The notes under the pieces: generated by a model
Told to the model about the DNA's origin: nothing
The model's database searches: none
Seen by the model: the letters and a program-made list of their open reading frames with translations, nothing else
Source: Pomacea canaliculata
Taxonomy: Eukaryota; Mollusca; Gastropoda; Architaenioglossa; Ampullariidae
DNA length: 64,000 bases
Reading direction: 5' to 3'
NCBI RefSeq assembly: GCF_003073045.1
Contig: NC_037602.1
Span: 1,612,001 to 1,676,000, forward strand
Shown: piece by piece, positions 204 to 45,400 of the stretch
How positions within the stretch are numbered: position 1 is the first letter of the stretch
How the letters are laid out: each line of letters begins with the position of its first letter
Program-made: the position numbers and the translations under genes

Positions 204-3200
204 CTCAAAGTGACGATGAAAAGTTCAAGAACATCGAAAATGAATTCTGGTCATGGCGCATGCGCGACGCCCCGCAGTTCGCCACCCAAGTGGGTGACCA
301 CAGCTACAACGACATCCTCGAGTCCTTCGACATCTCCGTCTACCAGACTCGCAAGGTACTGTGTTGTTTACTAGACTCGCAAGGTACTGTGTTGTTTACA
401 GACTCGCAAGGTAGTGTGTTGTTTACAGACTCGCAAGGTTGTTGTTTACAGACTCGCAAGGTTGTTGTTTACCACACTTACAATGCAATCAACGCTGGTC
501 AGACCCTGCAAGTGCAGACATACGCCGCCATATTGTGTCCCCTGACGTACTTGACCTAACGGTCACCTGATGACGTCAGTCTGTTACCTGTGTGAGGAGG
601 GTGAGCTGACAGATCGCCATCTTTTTGACAGGACAAGGTCCGCGAGTTCCTGGCCAAGCTTGATGGTGTCCACCCTGGTTCTCTACCAACAAATCGTGAT
701 CTGGATTTTGCCATCTTCAAAGAGCATCTGCAGACAGCTCAAGATGGCTTCGCATTTAACATGTAATGTTCACGAGTTTATCTCTTGATAAAAAGTAGCA
801 AATAAATATAGAAATAAATAATAAATATAGTTAATAAGAAAGTAAATGATATTTGCATTTTAGTCTCGCGTCTTCAGTGAAAAATGTGAAGTGTATTTGA
901 ATCTCTCGAGAACTGCAAAGCAGGCATGATGCAAAAACAATCTTGCTGAAAATTGTTTAGAAAACATCCTGTGTGTGAATTTGTATATATATGTATGTGC
1001 GAGAGTGAATGAAACACTGAACACAGCCCGTCTGTCCCACTCTGCCAGGCTCCAGATTGTAAACCCAGTGAACTTCCTGGAGGGGATCACGGGAGACCCA
1101 GCCAGCTTCCATGTTTACCTGCCATTTTCGACTGTTGGCGACTTCGAAAACTACATCCAGAGGCTGACTCTTTTACCTAAGCAGGTGAGCTTACCTGAGA
1201 TGACTTGGGTAGCAATGTGCATAATCAGGATTGTTTTTAGTACCAGCAGCATCTTTCCCCCCCCCCCCTACCATTCATATAAATGTGTGTGTGTGTGTGT
1301 GAGAGAGAGAAGATTGTCATCGTATCGGATGATAGTTACAGACGAAGGGATACAAAGTCGAGATAATGTCAAAGGTAAAATAAGATTAACACAAACCTCA
1401 CACATGCTGTAAGTCACTTGGGACGAGGACAGTGCACCACGTGACATTAATGAGAATGTTTTTATCAGCTTTTTAAGATGTAATTAACGTCCATAATTTC
1501 TTACTTTCGAAATCACATACGAAGAAAAAGAGAAGTTTATCGAATATACTCTATACAGATATTTACTTCTGTTACAGATTGATGAGAAAATAGAACTGAT
1601 GAAAATCTCGATCCAACTAAAACACACTCTGCACAACGTGTCTGTGGTAAGTGTCAACACTGTACGTTACGGCCACCGCCACCCGACCCCGGGGGTCAGC
1701 CCTAGAAAACGCGCCGGCCACAGGTGTGGACACCTTGTGGTTACCACAGTGCAGTCTAGAATTGTAATTCCACACGTAAATGAATAAATACATAAGAGAG
1801 AAAACACTGGAACCTTTAGGAATCGTTCCACCATGGATTACTTCCTGTTAAATCCCGAAAAAAAAAATCAACCAATCAGGTATTTCGTTATGTTTGAAAG
1901 TAGGCGAAGGTTTAGTTGTTCAAGCGCCATCTTGAAGTTGGTTGCATTTACTCAATTCAACTTGGATTTGTACTCAAACAACCGAAAATGAGAAGAAAAC
2001 AGTAAGTAACATTTAAATTCAAGTGTATATTCTAATAAAATATAATTTTTGTGTACTTTTATGTGTGTGTGTGTGCGTAGGAATTTTATAAATATTTTTT
2101 CTTAATGTCGCATTTTTGATCTACTTTCCGATTTGTGATTTCTCTGTCCTGTACAGTTACAGTCTTGATTTTACTACAAGAACAGAAAACGTATATTTGT
2201 TAAAATTTACACCACGAAAATGGATTTAAAATGCTCTTTCAAACGGAGTATCACAGATAGTTGTTTTTATTCTAAGTTAATAAATATAACTTTTTAAAAA
2301 TACCGGTCAAAATTTCATTGGCGGGCATTCGCCCTACGTAGACCAGGGGAGCGCAGGTTACCATGGTTACTACAGTCGCGTACACTGAAAGGTCATCAAG
2401 TGGCTTACACAGTGTTGACGAAAGTATAAATTAATGATTTTGTGGTAATTATATGATCTTTGTCATCAAGTGAATAGTAATTCATTGACAACAGTATGAA
2501 GAGCTTCGATGATGTATAATCCTACCTGAATATATGATGATGACGATGATGATGCTGATGATTGCTTTAGGTGGGGGTCATACCACAGATCGAAAAACTT
2601 CTTTCGGTCAACGACACGGAGTCGCCGTTGTATGCTCCGCCCTTCACGACCAAACTGAACGAATCGTCCGTCTCGGAAGACAAAAAGTAAGAATCTTCAA
2701 AGAATGGAAACAAAAGGGTTCAGTCACCACTTTCAGGTGAGGGTTGGTGATCGTGTGGGAGTGGGACAGTAATCGCCAAAATTCACTTTGCCAGTAAGAT
2801 TTACGGATTAGCTAGCCAAGAGTGAGAGCTTGAAGGCTTTGTCAATATCTTTAATAAAGCGTCTTCATCAAATGACACTGAGGTCAATGAAGTAAACAAT
2901 GAACAAGATGGAACACATGTAACATCAGTAACACAGCTACAGTCTCCAGTGGTCAGTGTGTTGTTGTTGTTGCTGTCACAGGGAGTCAGTGAGGACCAGA
3001 GCTCTCGCAGCTGTTGGCCATGTCAAGGAGGCTCTGAGACGACTGAAGACGTTTCTGGAAGACGAGTACATGCCGAACACGCGCACCACGTGGGGGGTAG
3101 GGGGACTGCCCAACGGCACGGCGCTGTACGAGCAGTGTCTGCGCTACCACACCAGCACCGACATGACCCCGCAACAGGTTCACGACCTCGGCCTCAGCGA

Positions 3201-6200
3201 GATGGCGCGCATCCAGACCAACATGCAGGCCGTGAGTGCAGCTCTCCTCATGGACTTGTAAAGTCACTTTACAGCAACATCTCACTGAGTGCAGTGGGCT
3301 GACGAAGTAACTGCGTGCGAGACCATACATCCAGACTTTTGTACACCATTATCACCAATTATTAGAAAAGTGTAAAAAAAAAACCACAACTTTACTGGTT
3401 AATTGTTTAAACATAACTTACTGTTTAAAATCAGATTAGTACTGTTTATTGCTACCATAGCCATCCATCTTTTGAAAAGACATATTGCGTAAATGATCCT
3501 TAACTGAACATGTCTTTAAACAGATTTTTTTCTGGCTGGAATTTTATAATTAATAAAAAAAACAATACACCTGTAGTGCGGGATGCAAACACACAAGTCT
3601 GTACTTTATTGCTGCCGCAGGCTCTCAACAGGCTCAAGTTCAATGGCAGCATCCAGCAGTTCTACGAAGACATCCGCCATAATCCTCAGTTTCACAAGAA
3701 CACTTCGGCAAGTGTGATCTCTTCCAGAACTGAAATATTTGTAACACTTTAAGAAAGGCTTGAAATGATCGTACACACGCTTACTAGTTTATATATATTT
3801 GCTTACTGCTTGGCTGATTTATGTATTTGTTTACTTATTTATAATTTGAAGCGCTACTCGTTAGTTTAATTTTGTCAAACATTGTCCATCTTTTCCATCT
3901 TTTCATCTGAATTAATAGCTTTCTTTTTTTTTCTCATTATGACGGTTTCTATGATTTGCTGTGCAGGAGGAGCTGTTGGACACCTATAAAGACTATGTCA
4001 AGATAATCACACTTAAACTATCTTTGCTTTTCAAGAACATTCCAGATTATCCTCTTAGGTGAGAAATGATATCCCTCAGATACATGGAATGGAATTGAGA
4101 TGATTGAAATCGTCGTAATGAAGTAGTTCCGGTTTGTTTATCGTTAGTGCACCGTAGAATTATAGTTTATAGTTCCGATTGTTTACTTTAGTGCACCGTA
4201 GAATTACTACAGAAATGTGAAAACTTTTGCCCGAGTCCCTGGTGTCAGCTCCCACCAAACTATCTTTTGTCCTCTTGTGAGTTGTACGGACATCCTTTGA
4301 GAGAGTGCTGGGAGTGTAAACACATGGAGTATCTACATAGTAAACATGATGCTAGAAAGCTTTCATTTAAATATAAACACTTGTTTAGAGATCACAGAAC
4401 CCATTTTGTAATACTGTTCCAGAATTCTTCCGATGACTTTCGATGGCCCACTAGGTTTTTACCAAAGTGGATCTCCAGATGGCAAAGTTCCGGGAACATT
4501 TTATGCAAATGTAATGAATCCTGCCAACACGTGAGCTTCGTTCGTTTATTCTCTTGGCGATACATTGATAAACATGTTGCGTGTGTGATACAACATAAAA
4601 TACTATAATTACAGATTATGGTCATTTGTTAGCACAGAGGGTGTGACTGATTATATTGTTATCTACAGCAGCAGCCTGGTCATGGACAAGTGAACTCTTG
4701 ATCTCTGTTCATCTGTTTCTTGCTGCCATCAATATTTTTAAAACATTATTTTCTGATGCAGCACCACCATCACCCTGATGTCACTGGTTCTCCATGAAAC
4801 CATTCCAGGACACCACCTACAGGTAGCACCACGATCTGTGTAGTCACTCAAGTGTAACAGCCAACAGTTGTCTGACAAACTCTAAAGTTAGCCACATTGA
4901 CCAACACACTAACACACGCACAAACCATCACACACACGAGTGCACACACATTTGTACCTACACACACGCACGAACACAACACAAACTTACAATGACACAA
5001 TGCATGCAAGCTGTTTTATGTGGACATGCTTCATGAACTCATCCTATTTTTCTAATAATAAATAGACATTAACAAAGATGTGATTCTCGTCCTTTGTCAG
5101 AGCATCTACTCGCTGGCGACAAGACTACCTCCCTACCGAGCTTTCATTGAGGACAGCAACTACTACAGGATGCCGGCCACCTTCCCCATCAACACGGCGC
5201 ACATCGAGGTCAGAGTTCACACGGTGACAGGGTGTCCTCTGTACTTTAGTTCAGGACTTTAGTACATGTCTCAGTGAACATATTGCTTTTAGCTTTTCCT
5301 AGCTTAACATAACTTTAACTCTTTGTCCTTTAAACTTTCTCGTCACCACTGTTACTCGTTTGGTTTTTATTTATTTTGTGAACAAACCAGAACAGTTTTT
5401 TATCTTATTGTATTGATGTTGTCTTCTAATACCCGGGTAATTCCGTCTTACTACAATAATCAGGGTGTGTACCTCCTCCATGGCAGGGCTGGGGGCTGTA
5501 CGCGGAGTTCCTTGGCGAGGAGATGGGCGTGTACACCGACGACTACATGCTGTAGGTCAACTGCTTCTTGTAATGTTTGTACACAGTCTGTTTAAACTAG
5601 AAAGTTTTTATCTTAAAGAAAATTTTGTTTCTTTTATTTTATCCTCAAAAAAATCCTTTGTGTATCTTTTAAAGTTTCTGGGTAATGTTTACAATGTCTA
5701 GAAGGTCTGGCGCAGGCGCAGTCACATCATTGCTAAATGTGTCAGCACTTTACTGAAGTAATGTACACCACCCGTATATGTTTACCTCTCACCACACTAC
5801 ACACCTGTTGTAGTCAATACAAACAGAGACTGTGTCCTGTGTAACAAAGTCCAGTATGAAGTGTGTTCATGCTGTTTGTGTTTCAGGATGGGGCGCTACT
5901 CCGATGAAATATTCCGTGCCGTGCGGCTTGTGGTGGACACAGGGCTTCACTACTTTGGGTAGGTCGTCCTTCTTGTACCGACTTTACAGGTGTGCACAGG
6001 CTCCGTGATTCAAATGTGTACAACTGTGTTTCCACTTACAAACCGTCGATTCCATCGTTCTGTAAAAGTTAGGGACAATCGGTTTTCTCGGAAAGGCCTC
6101 CTCGCGTCTCTACTTTTAGTATTACTTTTATTATTAGTATTGCTGCTTGTCCCACCATCATCTGACTGTTGACTGTTTTGACAAGCTGGGAGCGAGAGCG

Positions 6201-6988
6201 AGCCATTGAGTTCATCGTCAACAACACGGCGGAGTCGCGCCACTCCGCGCAGGTGGAGACAGACCGTTACCTGACATGGCCGGGCCAGGCCACCGCCTAC
6301 AAGATCGGCGAGATCAAGCTGAAGGACCTGAGGACAAGTGCCAGAACAGCCCTAGGTACTCACTCACTCACTTTGTCACGTGACACAGGTTGTCGGGTAG
6401 CAATAAAATAATGGGAAGGGGGGTATGAGGAGCAACATCCAAACATCGGGAAAGCTGTGTGTTTTCACAAAGGTTCTGCAAGAAGGAAAGACAAGATGTC
6501 TCCAGTCACAAAGTCTTGGGAGGACAATGGCGGGAAGAGATGAGTCAACATTAGAATCACTGAAATAAGTTTTAGAAATAAGATAGAAACTGTTTAGTGA
6601 GGGACTGAGGAAAGATACTAGCAATGCAGGACCAACTACAGAATTCGTCATTGTCGTTATCATCGTAACGAATTACTGATTGGTAGAGGCAATATCATGA
6701 TAACGGATTTTTTAATAATAAGAAATTGGAATCTACTGTTGATATTTTCCAGGTAACAATTTTGACATTCGTGATTTCCATTCACTGATTTTGGACAATG
6801 GCGTGATGTCCCTGGACCTTCTAGAACAACTTGTCAATGAGTGGATCTCCTCTCGCCTCACCTCAACTACAACCTCACCAACATCTTCCGGTGCAACATG
6901 GATGTTGGACATGGGGTGGAGCAAACCTCTGCTGTGGTCGACTTTAGTTTGTTGGAGTGTAAAAAAACTCTGTGGGCGAATCTTCTAA
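204..6988 (+). CDS. DUF885-family predicted zinc metallopeptidase, copy 1 (5' partial)
   Basis: Coding exons: 204-355, 632-762, 1049-1184, 1578-1646, 2571-2686, 2982-3231, 3621-3707, 3967-4058, 4423-4530, 4762-4822, 5101-5208, 5487-5551, 5887-5958, 6186-6355, 6753-6988. Phases join into 616 residues plus stop. The first exon needs one base from upstream, so the start and the probable signal peptide lie outside the window. Family hallmarks seen: HETIPGHH in exon 4762-4822 (predicted Zn ligands and catalytic Glu), GWGLYAEFLGEE in 5487-5551 and YLTWPGQATAYK in 6186-6355. Known for the family: DUF885 (PF05960) proteins carry an HExxxGH site and are thought to be metallopeptidases; the substrate is unknown. 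The intron after 3707 starts with GC rather than GT. The tail after about 6850 differs from copies 4 and 5 and resembles only copy 2. It is the first of five tandem copies. Confidence 0.9.
346..474 (+). repeat. Minisatellite built from the exon-3 splice donor (copy 1)
   Basis: About five tandem units start at the true exon end (CAGACTCGCAAG, then gtactg). Each unit repeats ACTCGCAAGGT followed by TGTTGTTTAC. The first unit holds the real donor at 355/356; the others lie in the intron and carry the same donor-like sequence. The later units are shortened. Confidence 0.9.
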
Positions 6989-11095: not shown

Positions 11096-13660
11096 ATTGT
11101 TCCAGTGATGTATCCTTGTGCTGCTGTTCTCCCAGATGTCTTTTTCAATCTCTTTTATTATATTTTTCCAGGGAATAAAAAGTTTGGTCCTGACCGCTGT
11201 AGTCTTGCTGGTCATCAGTACAGGTAATCCAAACTGACCTTTAACCTTCTTGTAAGAGGACAATGAATATTGTTGTGATTGTAATATCAAACGTGTCACA
11301 TTAAAGTACAATAAGATGCTAGTCTCACAGTAGTGTTTATAGTCAAACCCGCCAGTTGACCGAATGGAGGGAGGCCCCGGAATGTGACTGAAGCCACCCC
11401 ACACCTTGTAGAAGGTTGCTGAGACTGAGTGTCGCCGTGATAATTTCCGACAGTCAGCCTTTCTGTGTCGGTGTCTCTGTGTTCAGATCCCACAACATCT
11501 GAAGAGCAAAGTGCGGATGAAATTGTCAAGAAAATAGAAAATGACTTCTGGCGATGGCGCCTGCAGGACGCCCCGGAGTTCGCCAGTCAAGTGGGGGACA
11601 CCTCCTACAACGACATCCTCGAGTCCTTCAACGTTTCTGTCTACCAGACTCGCAAGGTACTGTGTTGTTTACAGTGTTGTTTACTACACTCGCAAGGTAC
11701 TGTGTTGTTTACACAAGGTACTGTGTTGTTGTGTTGTTTACAGACTCGCAAGGTACTGTGTTGTTTACTGTGTTGTTTACAGAATCGCAAGGTACTGTGT
11801 TGTTTACAGTGTTGTTTACTACACTCGCAAGGTACTGTGTTGTTTACACAAGGTACTGTGTTGTTTACAGTGCTGTTTACTAGACTCGCAAGGTACTGTG
11901 TTGTTTACAGTGTTGTTTACTACACTCGCAAGGTACTGTGTTGTTTACAGTGTTCTTTACTAGACTCGCAAGGTACTGTGTTGTTTACAGTGTTGTTTAC
12001 TACACTCCCAAGGTACTGTGTTGTTTACAGACTCACAAGGTATCATGTTGTTTACCAGATTCAAAAGGTATTGTGTCGTTTCTGAAACTTTCCAGTTGTT
12101 AATGTTCTTTTCTGAAAAACATTTGCGAATCTCACGTGCGCTCGGTGCTAACTCCCTCATCGTTCGTCGACTTGTGTTGTGCACTGACGAAATATGAGTA
12201 CGTGACTGAGTTTAAATGTTAATTTATGAACCTCAATGTTGATGTTACAAAAGTTATGTTTGAAGAATGGACACGATGTATAATTATCCATAATATTTAT
12301 AAATGGCTGGCAAAGCAGTGACTGACGAAGCTGAACAGTTCATGCACACACAGAGATCACGTGACTGAACTATAAATAGCCACACGTCATCGCTATTCTC
12401 TGAGAGACATGCCAGGTGACAAGTGACATCTTTGTGACAGGACAAGGTCAGTGAGTTCATGGACAGACTTGGAGAAGTGAACAGCAGTTCTCTGAGCACA
12501 GGTGGCGCTGTGGACTTTGTCCTCCTCAGTCGACATCTCCAGACGTTTCTCGATGGCGCCGCCTTTGACATGTAAGTACACAGTTTTATATATACATGTA
12601 TATTATAAGACTACAGCAATAGATCAGGTGCAAAAGAAAGGTAAACGAGATTTGTATGGTAGCTTCTTGTACCTTGAATGTTAGTGAGGTGCATCTGAAG
12701 CGTTACTAGAAGACCGGACAGGTGAAAAGATGTGTAAATGCGACCTGATCTACTCACAACCTCGATTCGCCCATTGTAGAATTACTCAGTTGTTCTTCAT
12801 CCTTGTGTACACTCATCAAATGTTTTCATTGCAGATGTAACTCACAATGTCGACTCAATTTGTCCCAATGCTTCTAAATGTAGTACTGATTCTAAATCCC
12901 ACTAACAAATGTTTTGACTGCTTGCAAGTACCAGTCCAAACAAAGTACTGATACTTCTAAACTGTTTGTCCTCCATATTTTGTTCAAACACCTGGAGAAT
13001 CCACACTCCCATGTACAACTATTGTATTCCTTACGGTTGAAGATAAATGTCATTAATGTATGTCGCTTTAATCCGCCTGTTGCCAACTAGGTATCAGGCT
13101 GTTAACCCCGTCAACTTCATGGAAGGTGTCACCGCAGACCCCGGAGGCTTTCAACTGTACCTGACCTTCTCCACCATTGACGACTTCCACAACTACACCC
13201 AGAGGCTGAGCCTCCTACCCAAGCAGGTGAGGCGCCTAAATGTTACATGATGATAGAAGAATGAGTGTGAGCAGATGACGAAGATAAGACAATACAATTG
13301 TCAAACAAAGATCTGAAAATAGACGAGATGATGGACAGCAGAAAATACGGATGGCACTGATCACTCATGGCTATACAGCCACTCCGACACAGTACAGGTG
13401 AAGAGCTTTCATCGACATTTGAAGCTTTTTATTTTAAAATCCCATGAAAGACAGACAAGCAGTGTCGTAAACAAATATTTACATCTGTTGCAGATTGATG
13501 AAAAAATTGAGTTGATGAGAATCTCAATAAAACTGAGGCACACACTGCACAATGTGTCTGTGGTAAGTGTGATGTCTGTGATCCTATTGTTGTTGTTTAT
13601 TGTTTATTAAGTGTGAGTGCTAGCATGATGGATGATGATGATGATGATTGATGATGATTG

Positions 13661-13722
<62 letters not shown>

Positions 13723-16700
13723 ATTATTATGATGATTGTTGTAGGAGGGTGTCTTGCCACAGATCGACCAAATTCTGTCAGTGGACGACACGCAGTCGCC
13801 GTTCTATGTTCCTGCCTTCACGACGAAGCTGAACGAGTCCGATGTCTCAGACGATATCAAGTAAGTACAGTATGTTCCTGCACATTGTTCCTCATCTTTC
13901 TTACAACATCGTGGCTGACACAAAAACAAGTTACAACATTAGTAGATTGTGGTGTTCGTGGAATACGGTCGTTTGTGGTTGGCAGTAGAGTCAACAACAA
14001 TATTTTTGCTGTTGAGGTTGATGAAGCAGCTGGAAAACATCAAGAGTTGTAAACAGCCTAAACACTTAACTAACCGTGTAAATAAAGTGTCGACATCAAA
14101 TGAAGCAGATACCTATTACAAAAAAGATTGAATTCATGTCCAGGTATCGACACTAGAAGCTGGAATAGTTGTCTACTTTCTAACATCACTAACTCAGCTA
14201 CAGACAGTCTCAGTGGTCAGTGTGTTGTTGATGTTGTTGTTGTTGTCACAGGGAGACAGTGAGGACCAGGGCTCTCGCAGCTCTTGGCCATGTCAAGGAG
14301 GCTCTGAGACGACTGAAGACGTTTCTGGAAGACGAGTACATGCCCAACACGCGCACCACGTGGGGGGTAGGGGGACTGGCCAACGGCACGGCGCTGTACG
14401 AGCAGTGTCTGCGCTACCACACCAGCACCGACATGACCCCACAACAGGTTCACGACCTCGGCCTCAGCGAGATGGCGCGCATCCAGACCAACATGCAGGC
14501 CGTGAGTGCAGCCCTCCTACCCGGGGTGCTCTCCTCTTGTTGCCCAGTGAACCTGACAGTGCGCGTGAGAGAGAGAGAGAGCTCCTTAACGGTTTCTCCT
14601 TCCATCCAACATTAAAAATCACATTGTGTGACAGGCGTGACCTTTACTTTGTTTTAGGCTCTCGACAGACTCGGTGTCAATGGAACCCTCCAGGAGTTTT
14701 ACAAGAGCGTTCGCCGAGATCCTCACTTCTACAAGAACACTTCGGCAAGTAGCAGCTTGATGTTTGTAAACAGTGTGTGGATGGGGCGGCGCTGATGTTG
14801 CACACCATCAACATATTTAGTGCTTCAACACAATGTTGGAGATCGTTTCTATGTCTATATAAATATATATTTACAATTTGTCTTACTTATTTTCTACTTG
14901 TTTTCTCTCTACTGCTCAAAATTTGAGGATTCTTTTCAGAATCGCTGATGACATACTTTCATGCTGTGTAGGAGGAGCTCTTACAAATGTTTGAGGACTA
15001 CATCGCTGAAGCCAGCTCTAAACTGTCTTCTCTCTTCAAAAACATTCCAGACTATCCTCTGAGGTCAGAATTCAAAATCCTCTCTTACATGCATGACAAA
15101 TTAGGGAGATAGGACATACTAGCATAGCGATTTGTCATTTCTTTTTATTTGTATTAATTACTTAATTACAAACTACACTTAAGACACATTAACAGGAATG
15201 CTAAATAGTTTCAAGGAGTCACCTGCCACCATGCTTCATGTCCTCGTGCGGAAGACATCAGCTTGTCCAGCTCTGGGTTGCGGAGCAAAGTTTTCCAGCA
15301 ACTAATGACCAAAAGGTGGATTGTGGGGACTCGGAGGACACTAGTGAAGACAGGATGGGTTGTACACGGTGTCAAACTGTTAGCACCCGGGCAAAACTAC
15401 AGATTCGCCCAACACACCAGCTCAGTTTTACAAAGACAGTTATTTTGTACGGCTCAAAAACAATAAAAGATGAAAACATTCCCCATTTTTAGCTTAGAGA
15501 AAGTGAAGAGTGAAGTGGTAGAACCAATCAGCTTCTGACTGTTATAATTTACCTATTTACGTGTTATCATTGTTTTATCATTTATTATAAACTCTTGTTT
15601 CGTTATCAAAGGACTTTTGCTTGCCTCCACATTTCAGAGTTCTCCCTCTTCCCTACGATGGACCAAATCTTTATCAAAGTGGATCTCAAGATGGCACAGT
15701 GCCGGGTACATTTTATGCAAATGTCATGAATCCTGCCAGCAGGTGAGCTTACATCACTCTTGTACCTACTTGATAGAACTTGTGGATCGTACATCAACCA
15801 CCGCTTGGTAGCTCCGAGGGTGGGTGGACCTTAGTATTGTCAACAGGAGTAGCAATATGTGCAAAACAGTCAATTCTTGCTGTGCTCATCTGCGTGTTAT
15901 AATTATTTTATCTGCTGATCCGTGTGCCTACTGACACTATTTGTCTAACCATTGACACTGTTTGTTGTTCTCAACCAGTCCTACCATCAGCATGATGTCC
16001 CTCACTCTTCACGAAACGCTACCAGGACACCACTTGCAGGTGAACACATCTGTCTGAGCCCTACAACCACCCGTTAAACACCGACATACAGACGGGTGTA
16101 CACACTCACATGCGCGAACACACACACGCACATATATATATACACGCACACACATACATATGCAACTAATGCTTGTCTGTAAAATAATGTGCTGCTCCAT
16201 GATAGTTTGATAACAATCACAAAGACATCGAAAGACTTGGTTGTCAGCTCTATGCCGGGTACAGACCTGTACACACTGTGCTTTGTGTTCCACTCCTCAG
16301 ACTATCTACTCGTTCACCGCCAATCTCCCTCCCTACCGAGCTTTCACTGACAACAGCAACTACTACAGGATGCCGGCCACCTTCCCCATCAACACGGCCT
16401 ACATCGAGGTCAGAGTTCACACGGTGACAGGGTATCCCCTGTACCTTTGTTACACACTTGAGTACATGTCTGGGTGAGCATGGAATCATGGAATGTACCT
16501 CCCAGCTTTCCGGATAACTTGAGCTTTAAGGAGAACTTTAGTCGGGAGAAATCACTGACAGAGAACTTTAGGGAATATGTAGCAGGACTGTGTTGTTTGA
16601 GGGTGGTGGGAAAGCTGTGCATGTTGTCTGCTAATTTATTGTATTGATGTTGTCTTCTAATATCCGGGTAATCCCGTGTTACTGTAATAATCAGGGTGTG

Positions 16701-18134
16701 TACTTCATCCATCACAGGGCTGGGGGCTGTACGCGGAGTTCCTTGGCGAGGAGATGGGCGTGTACACTGACGACTACATGCTGTATGTGAACACGTCTGT
16801 TCATAGTAGTTCAACCTCTTTATAAGTCAGATTGTTGTCACACTGGGTGTTCCTTTCCTTGAATGAACAAAGTTTGTTTTCATGGCACAGAGTTCTGGTT
16901 TTTAAAAATAAGATTTCGGTGTTCTTTTAAAGTTTCTTCCTTCAGTGTTTCATTTGATTAGATGGTCACTATACATGATGTGCAAGCTCGCCAGTTTCCC
17001 GGTATGTGTAGTAACAAACCGTCACAGACAGAATGTCTCAGTACTGTAACCGTCTCTACTGTCCCCTCACCACTCTACACACCTGTTGTAGTCATACAAA
17101 CAGAGACTGTGTCCTGTGTAACAAAGTCCAGTATCAAAGTGTGTTCATGCTGTTTGTGTTTCAGGATGGGGCGCTACTCCGATGAAATATTCCGTGCTGT
17201 GCGGCTTGTGGTGGACACAGGGCTTCACTACTTCGGGTAGGTCGTCCTTCTTGTACCGGCTTTACAGGTGTACTCGTGTATATGGTTCATGCTTTGCTAG
17301 TCATCGACATGCCTCCTGCATCATAAACACTCACACATCTTCTTGTGAAGAAGACTGCCTCTCTCCAAGTCTTTGTTCCTGGTATTGTCGAGGTGATAAT
17401 AATAATTTTTTTCTTTATGTTGCCAAGTTGGGAGCGCCAGCGGGCCATTGAGTTCATGCTCAACAACACGGCCAAGTCTCGCCAGACGGCAGAGATGGAG
17501 ATCAACCGTTACCTGACGTGGCCGGGCCAGGCCACCGCCTACAAGATCGGTGAGATCAAGCTGAGAGACCTCAGGAACAAAGCCACTGCCGCCCTAGGTA
17601 CTCACTTCCATTGTATCCATTGGTCCTGTCTCACTCACATATGACTCACTCACTCTGAGGACATCTCTGACTCTCAGCTGATTTCTGTCCTTTGCGCAGA
17701 AAATAAAAAATAATTAGAGTAGTTAGGCAAATCGTATGAAAAGAAAATGAAATAAAAAATCAGGTTCAAATGCTTCTTGAACTTTGCAAGGAACCAGAGG
17801 AAGCAAAATAAATAAATAAATAAATAAAATAAATAAAATAAAAATCATTGTCGTCGTTATCAGAAACATTGTTATCATTTCTTTAACAACGAATTTTTGA
17901 ATCTGCTGTTGCTGTTTGTCAGGTGACCACTTTGACATTCGCGATTTCCATTCACTGATTTTGGAGAATGGCAAGATGCCGCTGGACCTTCTGGAGCAGC
18001 TTGTGGATGAATGGATCGCCTCTCACCCAACTTCCGGTGGAACTTGGCTGTCTGGAGCGTGGTGGAGCAAACCTCTGTTGTGGTCGACTTTAGTTTGTTG
18101 GAGTGTAAAGGAACTGAGTGGACAGTTCTTCTGA
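10882..18134 (+). CDS. DUF885-family predicted secreted zinc metallopeptidase, copy 2 (complete)
   Basis: Seventeen exons join in phase to 633 aa: 10882-10887, 11172-11223, 11487-11656, 12441-12571, 13091-13226, 13494-13562, 13745-13860, 14252-14501, 14658-14744, 14972-15063, 15638-15742, 15979-16039, 16301-16408, 16718-16782, 17165-17236, 17428-17597, 17923-18134. The start was chosen because ATGGAA plus the 52-nt exon gives MEGIKSLVLTAVVLLVIST, a clear signal peptide, in phase with exon 3. HETLPGHH falls at residues 416-423, GWGLYAEFLGEE from 462 and YLTWPGQA at 535-542. Inference: a secreted or lumenal peptidase with zinc bound by the two motif His and a downstream Glu, probably E468. The intron after 14744 has a GC donor. 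The exon-3 donor is repeated about 15 times in the following intron. Exons 8 and 13-15 are almost identical to copy 1, while exon 9 is much less so. Confidence 0.92.
11642..12085 (+). repeat. Expanded splice-donor minisatellite in copy 2 intron 3
   Basis: About 15 units begin at the real exon 3 end (CAGACTCGCAAG, then gtactgtgttgtttac). Most units contain CTCGCAAGGTACTG and TTGTTTACAG, that is, a donor and an acceptor-like AG after a T-rich stretch. Units vary (ACTACACTCG, ACTAGACTCG, ACAAGG) and the last few decay. The array stays open in all three forward frames for long stretches. That reflects its composition and is not evidence of coding. Confidence 0.92.
13629..13740. repeat. GATG/GATT microsatellite just before copy 2 exon 7
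   Basis: GATGATG-type repeats pass into a pure GATT tetranucleotide run of roughly 14 units. The run ends only a few bases before the acceptor at 13744, so it occupies the place of the branch point and pyrimidine tract. The same intron of copy 1 (around 2534-2560) has a shorter ATG-rich version. Confidence 0.9.
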
Positions 18135-19479: not shown

Positions 19480-21200
19480 GACAAATCAGGGAGGTGACTA
19501 GACAAGTCAGGGAGGCTCTGGGACGACTGAAGACGTTTCTGGAGGAAGAGTACACGGCGAACACACGCATCACGTGGGGGGTAGGGGGACTACCCAACGG
19601 CACCGATGGTTGTTTGACTACATTGAAACTGTTCACTACAAACAAAGTATTTTAACTATGGCCGTGTCTAGCATCAATCATAACAGAGATGACTGACTTT
19701 AGCAATGAAAGGATAAAAGGAAAGAAGAGGCACAGAAGTGTTCCTTTATTTGTTCTTCCTTCTCTCAGTTGCTGGGTAACAAGCTGTCTCTAGCTACAGG
19801 TGTAGAGATGAAGACTTTTAGATTGTGACAAACCTGAGGGGCCTGACACTAACCTGAGTGACCCTCCTTGTCTTCATACGCTCGTCAGCTCAGACTTGAC
19901 CCTCGCCCCCCATACACACACTACACACACACTCATGAACATTATCATGATCACACTGCCAACACGTGTCTTGCGTGTGCGTTTGCTTGTAAGTCACAGA
20001 CGGGGGCCATCCGACTCGTCGTGCTTCTCTGTTTCATCTTGAGGTTTATTTTATATTTTATTTCACGGATTCCAAGTTCACCCGCTATCGGCGACACATC
20101 ACCTACAAGCAGTCCTCTGTCTGTCATTCTGCCAGCACTTTCACACACATCATGTCTTGGCCAGCTCAACATTTTTCCACACAAACATGTGTTTATCTCG
20201 CTATGTTATTACATGTAAACATGACATAAACAACAGTTTACTTTCCCATCAGGCTACGCGCCGGGACCACGTGACTGGATGTGCAGGCAGGACTTTCTCG
20301 TGTCTGTCCTCAGACTGCTGTAGCAGTTGTGGTGGTAGTGGTAGAAGTAGTATCATGGCTGTTGTTTTACTTTGATGTGCGAGTCTTGTGAGATAATGTG
20401 TCCATCATCAGCTGGCAACGAGAACGGGCGATTGAGTTTATTGTCAACAACACAACAAGACAACAAAGTGCCGCCATGCTGCTGACGTGGACAGACCGGA
20501 ACCTGACATGGCGGACACGCCACTGTCTACAACATCAACGACATCAAGCTGCGGCAACTCAGGAAAAAAAAAAAAAACAATCGCCCTCGTTATTCACTCA
20601 TTTCTACTCAGGACCCTCGTCTGTTGCCCACGAGTTTCTCCTGCAACGCTTTACACGTTTGAACTGATCCTCCGCTTTGCCAACGGTTGCTCTATTCCTG
20701 CGCTAGCAGTAGTAGTAATAGTAAGAGTAGAGTAGTAGTAATAGCAGGAGGAGTATAGTGAAAGTAGAAGCAGTAGAGTAGAAGTAATAACAGAAGCAGT
20801 AAAGCAGTAAGAGTAACAATGGAGGACGGACTTGCAGGATCCCACATCCGGTGTAGTTACCTGGAATGACAAAAGCAGAATGTACGACAGTAGAAACAAA
20901 AAGGATTCTCAATAAACAAATTTCATAAAAATAAATAACTTGAAAACATTAGCAACATAATGAAGTCACCTACATAACTCAAAGACACAGTCATCTGTAC
21001 CGACATTTTTACGATTTTCTCGCACATTCAATGAACCATCGGATGCTATTTTTAGCTGACAGCTTTGACATTCGCGACTTCCGCTCTGTGACTGTGGAGG
21101 ATGGCAGGTGCCTGTGGACCTCCTGCAGCAGGTTGTCGACAGATGGATCGTCTCTCGACAATTCTCACCTTCCGTGGCCAGTGGAGCGGCACTTCATGTT
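19480..21200 (+). pseudogene. DUF885 copy 3, decayed fragment
   Basis: Three exon relics stand in the order and orientation of the other copies. Exon 8 (about 19481-19605) encodes EALGRLKTFLEEEYTANTR and TWGVGGLPNGT, then breaks off before the YEQCLRYHTS part. Exon 16 (about 20412-20563) encodes WQRERAIEFIVNNT, then goes out of frame before the WPGQA motif. Exon 17 (about 21056-21180) encodes SFDIRDFRS and loses one base near GATGGCAGG, so the LLQQVVDRWI part shifts frame. Exons 9-15, including the HExxxGH exon, are absent. The relics still have splice-like AGs in front of exons 16 and 17. It lies between live copies 2 and 4. Confidence 0.85.
20700..20815. repeat. AGT-rich imperfect trinucleotide repeat
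   Basis: An interrupted run of AGT/AGC/AGA triplets lies inside the pseudogene region between the exon 16 and exon 17 relics. It gives spurious Y/S/C-rich frames on the minus strand. Confidence 0.8.
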
Positions 21201-24640: not shown

Positions 24641-27600
24641 ATGGGCGGAATGGATTCACAAAAGGAGGAAGGAAGCTGCTGCACTCAGTCAGCTGATGTC
24701 CTGCGCGCTATCGAGGACGACTTCTGGCGCTGGCGCATGCGCGATGCTCCGGAGTTCGCCTCCTCCGTGGGCGACTGCAACCACAGCGACATCCTCGAGT
24801 CCTTCACCCCGTCGGTCTTCCAGGCTCGCAAGGTAGTCCTTGAGGTTGTACAGTAGTTCACGTGACACGTTGTTATGAAGGTTTTCTCGCTTGACTGACA
24901 AGTCGCATCGTGTTTATCTCCCTTACTCCTCCCTTACAGTCCAGCGTCCAGTGCTACAGCATGCTACAGTGATGACAGTGTATCCAGTGTTACAGCATGC
25001 TACAGTGATGACAGTGTATCTAGTGTTACAGCATGCTACAGTGATGACAGTGTATCCAGATTTACAGCATGCTACAGTGATGACAGTGTATCCAGTGTTA
25101 CAGCATGCTACAGTGATGACAGTGTATCCAGTGTTACAGCATGCTACAGTGATGACAGTGTATCCAGTGTTACAGCATGCTACAGTGATGACAGTGTATC
25201 CAGTGTCACGGCATGCTACAGTGATGACAGTATATCCAGTCTATAGTAATGGCACTATGTCTAGTACTACAGCTAGTAATACCATGATAAGATAGTGTCT
25301 ATGCATATAGAAACCCCTATAGTTTGCACACCTCTACTGTGTGGTTGGCAGGTCCAAGTCCAAAGCTACCTGGACAAGCTTCAAGGTGTGGACAAGAGCC
25401 AGCTGACCCAGACTCAGATTCTTGACCTGGACATCTTCACAGATCATCTGCAAACATACAAAGAAGGCGCAGTCTTCGACATGTAAAAACCACTTTTTGA
25501 ATTTTTTGGGGAAATAGTTAATAAATTAAAATATGAAGATAAAGGAATAGTATGAGAAGCTAAAATAATTTGTAAGAGTCCAAAATGCCCTTAAAACTCA
25601 GGCCCTTGTCTAATATTAACTCATTCGCCAAACGTTTTACAGTTTCTCTCCTGATTAAAACCAACCCTCCCCACCAACTTAGGATGTGATTCTGTCGTGG
25701 TTGTTACATCGTCACATTTATCAAAATATATATTAAATGTTCATTCTGTGCGTCCTGTCGTCACTGTTGACCCTCCAGGTATCAAAGCATGAACCCTGTC
25801 AACTTCCTGGAGTCGGTGAACGCCGATCCTGGGAGGTTACAGGTCATCGCGCCCTTCTCATGCTTCAACGACTTCGTCAGCTACCTGGAGAGGCTGAGGC
25901 TGTTACCCACACAGGTAAATGATGGCTGTCTCAAGCATTTTAAAGACAGTTTAAGAGAGTTCAAGTGCCATACGAAAATAAAATGCGAACTACAGCACTA
26001 AAAGTATATTTATTGCTATATATATATAGAGAGAGAGAGCATAAAAGAAAAAAATCAAAAAATAAAAATAACCCATTCTCGTTTAAGGCCACACATTGAA
26101 AAAAAAAAACACAGCACTTACTAAATTATAATGTGGATTTCATTGACAGATAATAATAAATATATTCGGTTTTCAGATTGACGAAAAAATTGCTTTGATG
26201 AAGCAGGCTGTGGCCCTGGGAAACACGTTAAACAAAGTGTCCGTGGTGAGTCCACCCAGCTCTCGGTACCCTCGGGTACTGTTGTCTTGATACTTGTGTT
26301 GTGCACTCCATGATTAATTACTCAGACTCCCAGCATGGATGCCACGACACAGAAGTAAATTAACTGCTGTATTATCTATGCATGGTTGTTTGGGGCAGTG
26401 CGGCAAAGCAGTATCGAGTATTACACTATATCCTAATTCCATTTGTTAGATGTTCCTTCAGGGTGTTTGATCAACAGATACACATATTACAAGTGCATCC
26501 CGTGCTTCTCTTGCCCCTCCCCTCCCAAGCACAGACATGTCCTTGTATTACTTGTCCTTGTAAACAAAGGTGGCCTGTGCTCTTCCTTCTGTCATTCCTG
26601 GCGGCGGTGATGCATTGCCGCAAACATCCGCGAAGGACGTTGGAGGGTGTGTCGTGGATGGGAGCAGCTGTGTGCACCTCCCCTTCAACCTCACTTGTCA
26701 GTTCCTTCTTCCCAGAGCTTTATTTTCCTCTGCGCAATATTAGTAATAAAATAAATTAATCTCACGATGAGTGTCGGAGGAGGACTGTAGAGACGTAGTT
26801 GCATGTTTGTAAGCAAGAAAACTCTAATGGTGAGCGTGGTGAGGGCGTGGTGAGGGCGTGCGGGGTGACGTGTACAGTCGAGGGTTGCTTGTCCTCTAGG
26901 TGAGTGTCCCGGCTCAGATCCACAGGTTGGTGTCTGTCAACAATCAACAGTCGCCATTCTTCGTGCCGGCCTTCACCACCAGGCTCCAGGCGCTGCCATT
27001 GCCAGAGTCGCACAGGCAAGGATGACATCCTCAAGCCTTGAGGCTTTCTAAGCACCGTGTGTCATACAAACACCATAGCCATGTCTATCCTCTCTGGCTT
27101 TCTAAGCACTGTGTGTCATACAAAGACCACAGCTATGTCTGTCCTCTCTGGCAGATGCCATTTACCGCCAGGAAAAAGCTTGATAAACGGCGGTGGAGTC
27201 GACCTCCATCTGACAGTTTTTTATAGACCCGGAATTTTTAATTTAGTGAAGCTGAATGTGTCGTATTAAAACTTTAGTGTACCTGTCTCTTTTTGTACAC
27301 AATATATATATTATGAATGACATGTGGTTCTGGTAGGAGTTTTTACGAAAACATAGTTACAACACATCTACTAGTACATGCTTAAACTCCACGATGAAAC
27401 AATAAATGTTGCCCGCTTGACGCTGCGGCTTGTTTACCTTTGACCTCCAGGGAGGAACTACGTGCCAAAGCGGAGGATGCCGTGGTCAGCATCAAGAAAG
27501 CCTTGGTCCGCCTGGCCACCTTCCTGGAGCAGGACTACTTGCCGGCCACCCGGCCTACGTGTGGGGTGCACGGGTGGCGCGAGGGCAAGCGGCTGTACGA

Positions 27601-42439: not shown

Positions 42440-45400
42440 ATGGCGATGGCGATGGCAGTGGAGAAATCTGCACTCGCTGAGGGCATCCAGCCGAGAGTAA
42501 GAAGCAGATCTAAAACATGGGAGTTACATGGAAGTAGAGGTGAGTTCACTAAATCAGCTCTCGATTTTGTCAGGCATGTTCAACAGAAAGGCATGGGTAC
42601 TAATATTAGAAGTGTCTTTTTCGAAAAATGATCGTCTTCAGAGACTAATATGTAATACGGAGAATTTTTATACAAGAACATTTTTGTTCCTCATTTTATA
42701 AAAGCTTCACAGATGACAAACCAGGTATTTGGAATAAAATACGGTGTTGAATGCATAGTTATCCAGCTGTTGCTGTGTATCTTTAGCTTATCTGTCTGAA
42801 AACAGAGTTGAGTTGTAGGTAAATACAGTTTCTGTTTGGAAATATTATATCACAAATAATAATTTTCATGTATGCGGAACTAATGACATCATTAACTTTA
42901 ATGAGTTACTGTTGCTCGCTCGTTTGGTCTTATCATTAACACTAACAGCTGTGATATTTGTAGCCATATACGTACTTGGCAGTTTGCGGACAAGAACTAT
43001 TTGGGGATAAAGGGCATTTGCACGTAGTGTCTCCCCGGTACATTACTACTATAAGCAGGCAATTACAAGTTTTGTTTTTTAAAACTTGCACTAAAGACGA
43101 TCGGATGGAAAAATAACAAGAAATGCAAAAGTATTTCCGCTAATTATTTTTAACAAGTCGACACGTGTATGAGCGCTCGGGTGTTGTTGGCATGTAGTGT
43201 GTTGTCTAATCCCTTCCATGGAGTTGTTGAAAAAGGGACTGTCATTAAAGGCTTTCAACAGTTTTTCACTAAGTAAGGCTTTTTTTGAGGGCTGTTTTCT
43301 TTCCGTGATAGGCTTTCACCTATTACTAAGTGTCCAAGTAATAGTATAGAAACTGTTATTCCCAAGACCTGGTATCCTACTTACTGCCTCATTGTAATTT
43401 TAATCTGGATATAAAGTTGCCAAGTGTGCATTATCATTATCAGTGATAAAACAGGGCTTCTGCTTACGCAAAAAATTGCGTACAGTACGCATTAAAAGTT
43501 CTGAGGACCCCTTCAATTTTTGTCAGTGGGGTCCCCTTCAAATTTGGGCGAAGAACAAGGACCCCTTAAAAATCTGAAGAAGGGGTCCCTGGGACCCCAA
43601 AGAATTTAGCCTTAGCAGAAGCCCTGTAAAATATCTGTAAATTTTAGAATGTTACCTAGAGAGTTTATGATTCTTTTCAGAATTTGTTGAATGTTTAATG
43701 CTGTTGTAGCAAAGGGAGTTCCAGTTTGCAATAATTCTTTGTGAAAAATAAAATTAGTTTTTTGTGGTATTACAATTTTTGGTAAAATCTTTTCCTTCAG
43801 AATTTTTAGTAATCTTAATTTTTGTGAGTAATCCATGCATATCAATATCGTCATGTTCATCAAATGTGGTGTCAGAATATCAGATATAAGTCCTTTATAC
43901 ATCAGAGAAAGTAACAGGTGACATGAGCAGGTTGGGGGTTTATCTTATGTACTATGCCTTAACATAGGCTGCAGAGTCATTACTTGTTGGAGCTGTGAGC
44001 AGTAACCTGGGACCAGGTGAACAATACATTGCAAGCTGATTGTCTAACATGTATATGTTTTAGCTTGTCCACACGCTGCTTTATACAAGCCAGTCATTTA
44101 GTGCTCAGTGATTTTGTATACCTGGCATGTTAGAAACTTCAGAATTTTGTAATTGATAATTTTGGTTTTCATTAGAGTGTTTGTGCACTGGTTTTAAATT
44201 CCTATTACATGTACAACAGAAACAGGAAATTATAAAAACTGATGAGCAGCCTTCCGCACACGTTTTTTCCATACCTTGGTATCTGAGAAATATGAGCTTC
44301 CTGGTATTCGTTTGGTTTGGTTTAATTTTCATGTGCCTACCTACTCTGACCATGAAGGCTTCAAAGCAGGACATGCCTGCTGCACCAGAACTCCCATCCA
44401 TGCACCTGAAGCTCTCAGATCTCTAGAAGCTGACTTCTGGGCCTGGCGGATGGAAGACGCTCCAGAATTTGCCACAGCTGCTGGTGAGACATGTCACAAT
44501 GACCTCCTGGAGTCCTTTGATATATCAGTCTATCAGACTCGCAAGGTATTATTGCTGTTTATCTCTGCATTCACAAACCATGATTATTTCAGTTTCTTTT
44601 ACCCCCGTCCTTTTTGTTTTTCCATTCCATGAGAAGCCAACAAGAGATGACGCCTACAAAAGTCAAGTCAAGTAGGAGAAAAGGTGCTATGAAATTGAGG
44701 AGGTTTTTTTTTTTTATTTTTTAAGGAAAATAACCTTCATGCAAAAAACTGGAAAGAATTTATGGCAGATCTTTATAGCAAGAAGCAGATTGTTTTGAAA
44801 ATCAGTTATGTGGATAACAAAAAGTGCAGTTCTTTTAGGCAGATTTGTGTCTAGATCATTCATGCATTGACATTTTAAATTTAATGAAGTTTATTTTGAA
44901 AACTTTACTGTCTGATTCTTATTCTAAGTTTTTTATCAATTCCACTTTAAATGACTGCATCCTATGATGTTGTAATCCATGCAAATATCAACAATGCCTA
45001 AGTAGCATTGCATAATGTATTGAAATATATTTGCATATGCACAAATTAAGAGCATGCACACACACACACCTAAATGCATACATGCTGGCGTGTGCAGCAG
45101 CCCATTCTTAAGAGACATATACACATGCAGATTAGATGGGGTTGATATGCAGGTTAACATATACAGACACTACTTGTACTGTCTGGGGAAATGCTGTACA
45201 GGTAGTCCTCGGGTTACGACGGTCTCGAGTTTCGTGGTTTCGACGCTTTATACGTGTCTCATTGCGACTTACGTCGTAAGTCGAACTGTACGTGCGCCTA
45301 ATTCCACGTGCGGCACAATATTTTACTGTACTTATGTTTATTGATACTTAGGTTTATTATGTTTATTAATAATTATTCAGGGTACTGTGTTAGGATAGGT

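Follow-up and report, generated by a model that had tools for sequence, protein, structure and literature searches.

The locus and its gene copies

We examined a window of 64,000 bases (G000:C13:1612001-1676000) in a snail genome of which 440,159,624 bases on 24 contigs were searched. The tandem genes in this window belong to the DUF885 (PF05960) family. The gene models of copies 1 and 2 gave open frames of 636 and 633 aa, respectively, all their introns were GT-AG or GC-AG, and both N-termini resembled a signal peptide on visual inspection. Copy 2, the copy that was scanned, matched DUF885 at full length (residues 49-591 on profile positions 1-532, E = 4e-135), and the end of its exon 3 falls after residue 76, inside the domain. 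Its matches among solved structures were three bacterial-type chains (3o0y was the best) and covered residues 170-595 only, with the junction region outside. The positions of the features are given in Table 1.

Table 1. Features of the exon 3/intron 3 junction and its array in the DUF885-family copies (window positions unless a contig is named; a slash marks the exon-intron boundary).
Feature	Position	Strand	Basis
Exon 3 of copy 1	204..355	+	Paralogue alignment, gene model
Junction minisatellite of copy 1, from the real donor (array extent 347-474)	356..474	+	Array listing, site count
Sixth unit of copy 1, decayed, GT lost, GTTTACCACACTTACAATGCA	466..487	+	As good a match in 0.004 of 1000 shuffles
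Exon 4 of copy 1	632..762	+	Gene model
Exon 3 of copy 2, end ...VYQTRK, phase 0	11487..11656	+	Paralogue alignment and gene model
Seed unit, exon part, GTCTACCAGACTCGCAAG (VYQTRK)	11639..11656	+	Unit alignment
Junction minisatellite of copy 2, from the real donor (array extent 11648-12085)	11657..12085	+	Array listing, site count
Last unit of copy 2, decayed, GTTTACCAGATTCAAAAGGT; VYQ part nearest to the exon	12050..12069	+	0/1000 shuffles as good
Exon 4 of copy 2, stops of both shifted frames inside	12441..12571	+	Gene model
Family remnant, presumed copy 3; only exon 8 and exon 16 pieces	19503-20511		Exon queries
Copy 4, exon 3 core	24695-24832
Copy 4, single junction, array of junction type absent, GTCTTCCAGGCTCGCAAG/GTAGTCCTTG	24815..24842	+	Unit alignment
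Copy 5, exon 3 core	44402-44545
Copy 5, single junction, array absent, GTCTATCAGACTCGCAAG/GTATTATTGC	44528..44555	+	Unit alignment
L013, distant exon-3 homologue	G000:C3:29164288-29164422	minus
L012 and L014, distant exon-3 homologues, same junction, single, without array	C14

Splice sites for scoring were picked by eye from the paralogue alignments and comprised 54 donors (none taken from any last exon, nor from exons 1-2 in copies 4 and 5) and 40 acceptors (15 from copy 1, 16 from copy 2, 5 from copy 4 and 4 from copy 5). Four of these 54 inferred donors had GC instead of GT, at 3707, 14744, 27015 and 47672; they belong to intron 9 in both copy 1 and copy 2, to intron 7 in copy 4 and to intron 5 in copy 5. 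They were dropped, leaving 50 GT donors from four genes.

Anatomy of the junction minisatellites

Intron 3 of both copy 1 and copy 2 opens with a minisatellite that runs from the exon-intron junction onwards and carries donors within its units. Copy 2 contains 13 AAG/GT sites including the real donor at 11657, at spacings of 40, 21, 35, 39, 40, 21, 40, 40, 40, 40, 27 and 28 bases, while copy 1 contains 5 including the real donor at 356, at spacings of 28, 27, 27 and 23. The sites of copy 2 comprised 11 AAGGTACTG, 1 AAGGTATCA and 1 AAGGTATTG, and those of copy 1 comprised 2 AAGGTACTG, 1 AAGGTAGTG and 2 AAGGTTGTT. Within the window we counted 9 occurrences of the 14-mer CTCGCAAGGTACTG, of which 7 lie in copy 2 and 2 in copy 1, against a mean of 0.00 in 100 dinucleotide shuffles.

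The initial annotation had described such an array in both genes, with a different number of units in each, and this was confirmed. In copy 2 the majority of the donors match the first (10 of the 12 extra donors are the same in all nine bases of AAGGTACTG). Its figure of about 15 donor copies compares with 13 counted in copy 2. The unit CTCGCAAG/GTACTG, said to recur throughout, was found in 7 of 13 units in copy 2 and 2 of 5 in copy 1, and not in the rest. In copy 1, unlike most of copy 2, the donor part varies from unit to unit: the four extra units all have an intact exon part, and only one of them keeps GTACTG. Distal units were decayed in both arrays.

We considered whether the arrays, or their lengths, could be artefacts of assembly, given that a single assembly was used and that tandem repeats are error-prone in assemblies. 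The two arrays lie 11 kb apart, each with its own variants and decayed ends, and the published assembly, if it is the same one, is described as built from PacBio reads of about 10 kb and polished with Illumina data (PMC6129957); thus, an artefact appears very unlikely.

Origin of the repeat unit

All 18 AAG/GT sites and the lone junctions found in copies 4 and 5 were put into one alignment. The exon bases in the unit were GTC TAC CAG ACT CGC AAG (VYQTRK), 18 in total, followed by about 10 intron bases, so that the likeness to the exon reaches upstream of TRK. In particular, the exon reads GTCTACCAG-ACTCGCAAG-GTACTGTGTT and unit 2 of copy 1 reads GTTTACTAG-ACTCGCAAG-GTACTGTGTT; GTTTACTAGACTCGCAAGGTACTGTGTT of this unit aligned to GTCTACCAGACTCGCAAGGTACTGTGTT of the exon and intron, and its 28 bases are identical to unit 8 of copy 2. 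The last unit of copy 2 reads GTTTACCAG-ATTCAAAAG-GTATTGTGTC, and other units carry TGTTTACAG, one base shorter.

The VYQ-like part of the last copy 2 unit agreed with the exon at 8 of 9 bases; among 4024 control sites, the share that did as well was 0.0007. The units with TAG agreed at 7/9 or 6/9 bases (0.01 and 0.06 of control sites, respectively) and those with TTTACAG at 7/8 with a gap (0.0075 of control sites), while both short 21-base units had no VYQ-like part. In copy 1 the first two sites are exactly 28 bases apart, and in copy 2 another 13 bases repeat the TGTTGTTTAC stretch, as seen by eye, and give the 40-base spacing.

Because the likeness extends upstream of TRK and the first copy 1 spacing is 28, the aligned units indicate that the seed unit is a 28-base tandem duplication across the exon 3/intron 3 junction, comprising six codons and about 10 intron bases, with the splice signals inside the duplicated segment. 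Since the unit duplicates 18 exon bases, the acceptor-like TTTACAG is copied VYQ coding sequence. This origin of the repeat unit from a junction duplication is the new point of our analysis.

Confinement to the locus

In whole-genome searches, whose repeat counts are lower bounds and which skip simple repeats, a 25-mer from the unit had 7 exact matches and a 144-base query had 4, all of them at the copy 1 and copy 2 arrays. The looser ACTCGCAAGGTNNTG had 15 matches, 10 at the locus and 5 as singles elsewhere, against 3 for the reversed control.

With exon 3 as the sole query, we found seven exon-3 homologues genome-wide. The homologous junction was present in all seven, and the first donor of the arrays lies at it; the array was present only in copies 1 and 2. 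The other five (copies 4 and 5, L012, L013 and L014) have a single junction; exon 3 of L013 is stop-free and ends ...AYIKRE/GTAAGT, and TRF found no array at that locus. Copies 4 and 5 had been reported to be free of the array, which is correct for the junction type, but intron 3 of copy 4 carries another, unlike minisatellite. This is an ACAG-rich array of 36-bp x 8.2 at 24947-25240, about 115 bases past the donor.

As a control, we counted donor junctions touched by any tandem array, with arrays merged by hand up to 53,000, and found 2 of 58 against 2.7 expected from coverage alone. Tandem arrays are therefore not generally drawn to donor junctions, and the peculiarity of the copy 1 and copy 2 array is that the unit itself is built from the junction.

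Relation of copies 1 and 2

The likeness between the two copies (209-6355 vs 11510-17597) is patchy. Across 13 exons (exon 11 differs in length; exons 1, 2 and 17 were left out), identity ranged from 0.66 in exon 4 and 0.83 in exon 3 to 0.97-0.98 in exons 8, 14 and 15, and this pattern suggests patches of gene conversion. The third introns, from the end of the array to the last stretch before exon 4, gave no blastn alignment between the copies. In such surroundings, the identical 28-base units in both arrays point either to gene conversion or to an array that predates the split of the copies.

The last third of exon 3 was more similar between copies 1 and 2 (0.92) than the other thirds (0.80 and 0.78). 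We did not retain gene conversion through exon 3 as the sole cause, since this third is likewise nearer to copy 5 (0.84 and 0.80); constraint would account for at least part of the likeness, and the suggestion of conversion comes mainly from the other exons.

Proposed micro-exons in the units

The initial annotation had read the units as nine-base micro-exons encoding TRK. Units of this form do exist: a YAG stands directly before an exact ACTCGCAAG in seven of them (3 in copy 2 and 4 in copy 1) and before a variant of it in three further units. On an acceptor matrix built from the 40 acceptors (median 3.55), these pre-unit sites scored from -1.2 to 4.9, a range that overlaps the median of the real acceptors. 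The exon's own VYQ stretch scored 4.49, and the acceptor-like look of the units is explained by the VYQ codons; as TTTACAG is copied VYQ coding sequence, the micro-exon look is largely a by-product of it.

Distances also speak against this reading. The next YAG lies 14-47 nt past the donor at the 16 of 18 array sites that have one (a four-base GTAG at 411 was set aside), while the shortest intron in the two gene models is 156 nt (n=30), and a new intron spliced between neighbouring units is therefore unlikely. In copy 2 the unit acceptors lie 87, 126, 227, 307, 374 and 402 nt from the first donor, and in copy 1 the distances are 19, 46, 73 and 96 nt, so that a TRK exon would require units to be skipped, which is feasible in copy 2 yet unlikely. 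Taken together, we consider splicing of TRK micro-exons from single units extremely improbable.

Donor choice and reading frame

We then asked what use of the extra donors would do to the protein. Of the 16 extra donors, 5 kept the reading frame: 4 of the 12 in copy 2, with inserts of +32, +45, +92 and +137 aa, and 1 of the 4 in copy 1, with an insert of +35 aa. The remaining 11 shift the frame and run into a stop within exon 4. The array might nevertheless be an alternative-donor array, in which the choice of unit yields cysteine-rich in-frame inserts or a frameshift shut-off and array length acts as a heritable dial. The donors are near-identical, the exon frame stays open along the entire 411 nt of array in copy 2, and in human IFI6 the repeat donors are reported to be used (PMC4526556). 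On the other hand, so few frame-keeping donors weaken the proposed in-frame tuning, most copy 1 donors are altered, and the inserts would land inside the DUF885 domain and not, as had been supposed, before the catalytic domain. We also rejected the open frame as a sign of selection: only 1 of 5000 base shuffles was open, but so were 2041 of 5000 unit-order permutations, and the openness follows from the unit itself. Overall, we regard such an array as unlikely. RNA folding was unremarkable, with z of -0.88 and -1.23 for the arrays (30 base shuffles each) and -1.28 for a control stretch.

Another reading is that the repeated units, as U1-binding sites that are not cut themselves, help the first donor, with its poor intron side, to be recognised. 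At the intron positions alone, only 5 of the 50 family donors score at or below GTACTG, and it is GTACTG that the unit repeats. However, homologues of similar or poorer intron side (copy 5, GTATTA) cope with a single donor, and the first donor pairs with U1 at an average predicted strength (-6.2 kcal/mol against a family median of -6.4; 24 of the 50 donors are equally weak or weaker than AAGGTACTG) because of its AAG. A helper role is thus quite unlikely. We had also considered the first donor unusually weak, since its nine-position score was below all 50, but A at -3 occurs in only 3 of the 50, probably for coding reasons, and the U1 pairing is average; we therefore dropped this view.

Discussion

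We consider it probable, taking the account as a whole, that the array is a junction-duplication minisatellite that leaves with the intron while the first donor is the main one and the extra donors are minor. A tandem duplication across the exon 3/intron 3 junction of a DUF885-family gene gave rise to the minisatellite, its units would have been gained and lost by slippage or unequal exchange, and descent and/or gene conversion would have made it common to both neighbouring paralogues. The sequence shows the anatomy of the array, where its unit came from, that it is confined to this locus and what the reading frames are; which donor serves, and the lack of a function of the array, we infer. 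The first donor is most probably the main one, giving an intact protein and removing the array with intron 3; it is favoured because it lies at the junction common to seven homologues, because the protein is intact, and because distal units have decayed. The account is also supported by the single junction in five homologues and by the stop that 11 of the 16 extra donors bring about within exon 4. Moreover, the intact exon parts and altered GTACTG of copy 1 are the reverse of what donor-keeping would predict. The extra donors would probably take at most a minor share, mostly as frame-shifted messages (unproductive leakage). Such leakage is plausible in copy 2, because its extra donors are mostly identical to the first one, with U1 pairing near the family median.

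A more functional version, in which the two paralogues share a length-adjustable splice selector, unit number balances intact secreted enzyme, insert forms and dead messages, and conversion moves units between the copies, seems to us distinctly unlikely; if it were true, cysteine-rich inserts of 35 aa in copy 1 and 32-137 aa in copy 2 would enter near the start of DUF885.

Our literature search by term found no paper on a VNTR at an exon-intron junction or on the IFI6/G1P3 repeat. Turri et al. in 1995 reportedly described a minisatellite with multiple splice donors in human IFI6 (6-16, G1P3). Two of its downstream repeat units are described as acting as donors, which results in three mRNAs (PMC4526556). 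The snail array resembles IFI6 in that a minisatellite repeats the splice donor at an exon end. It differs in that donor use in IFI6 comes from transcripts while the snail array is described from genomic DNA, in that the snail units have 21-40 bases and are mostly frame-shifting while the IFI6 unit has 12 bases and is frame-neutral, and in that gene and phylum are unrelated.

In recent human paralogues, minisatellite units with a mean length of about 30 bp, located at exon-intron boundaries, are described as altering splicing, with 27 RNA-supported intron changes (PMC2812944). As described there, unit number differs between recent paralogues, and in the snail we found such a difference at the boundary (5 vs 13, with none in the five other homologues); unlike those human cases, the snail array, read at the genomic level, repeats the 5' splice site specifically. 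A single duplicated 3' splice site region in potato is reported to have become a new intron, its splicing supported by RNA-Seq, and duplication of a splice-site segment is presented as a path to new introns (PMC4974935). Both that case and ours involve a tandem duplication over a splice junction that copies splice signals, but in the snail it is a 5' splice site that has been copied, many times over, and single units are too short for introns. We conclude from these comparisons that the snail array appears to belong to a known kind of accident and is distinguished by its long series of near-identical donors.

The copies thus offer a natural series for the choice among identical donors, with one site in copies 4 and 5, five donor-like sites in copy 1 and 13 in copy 2, and they illustrate how signals resembling donors and signals resembling acceptors can both come from one duplicated exon end. 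Use of the extra donors, if it occurred, would make the array a molluscan equivalent of IFI6 with an independent origin, and a possible source of length-dependent variation of the protein.
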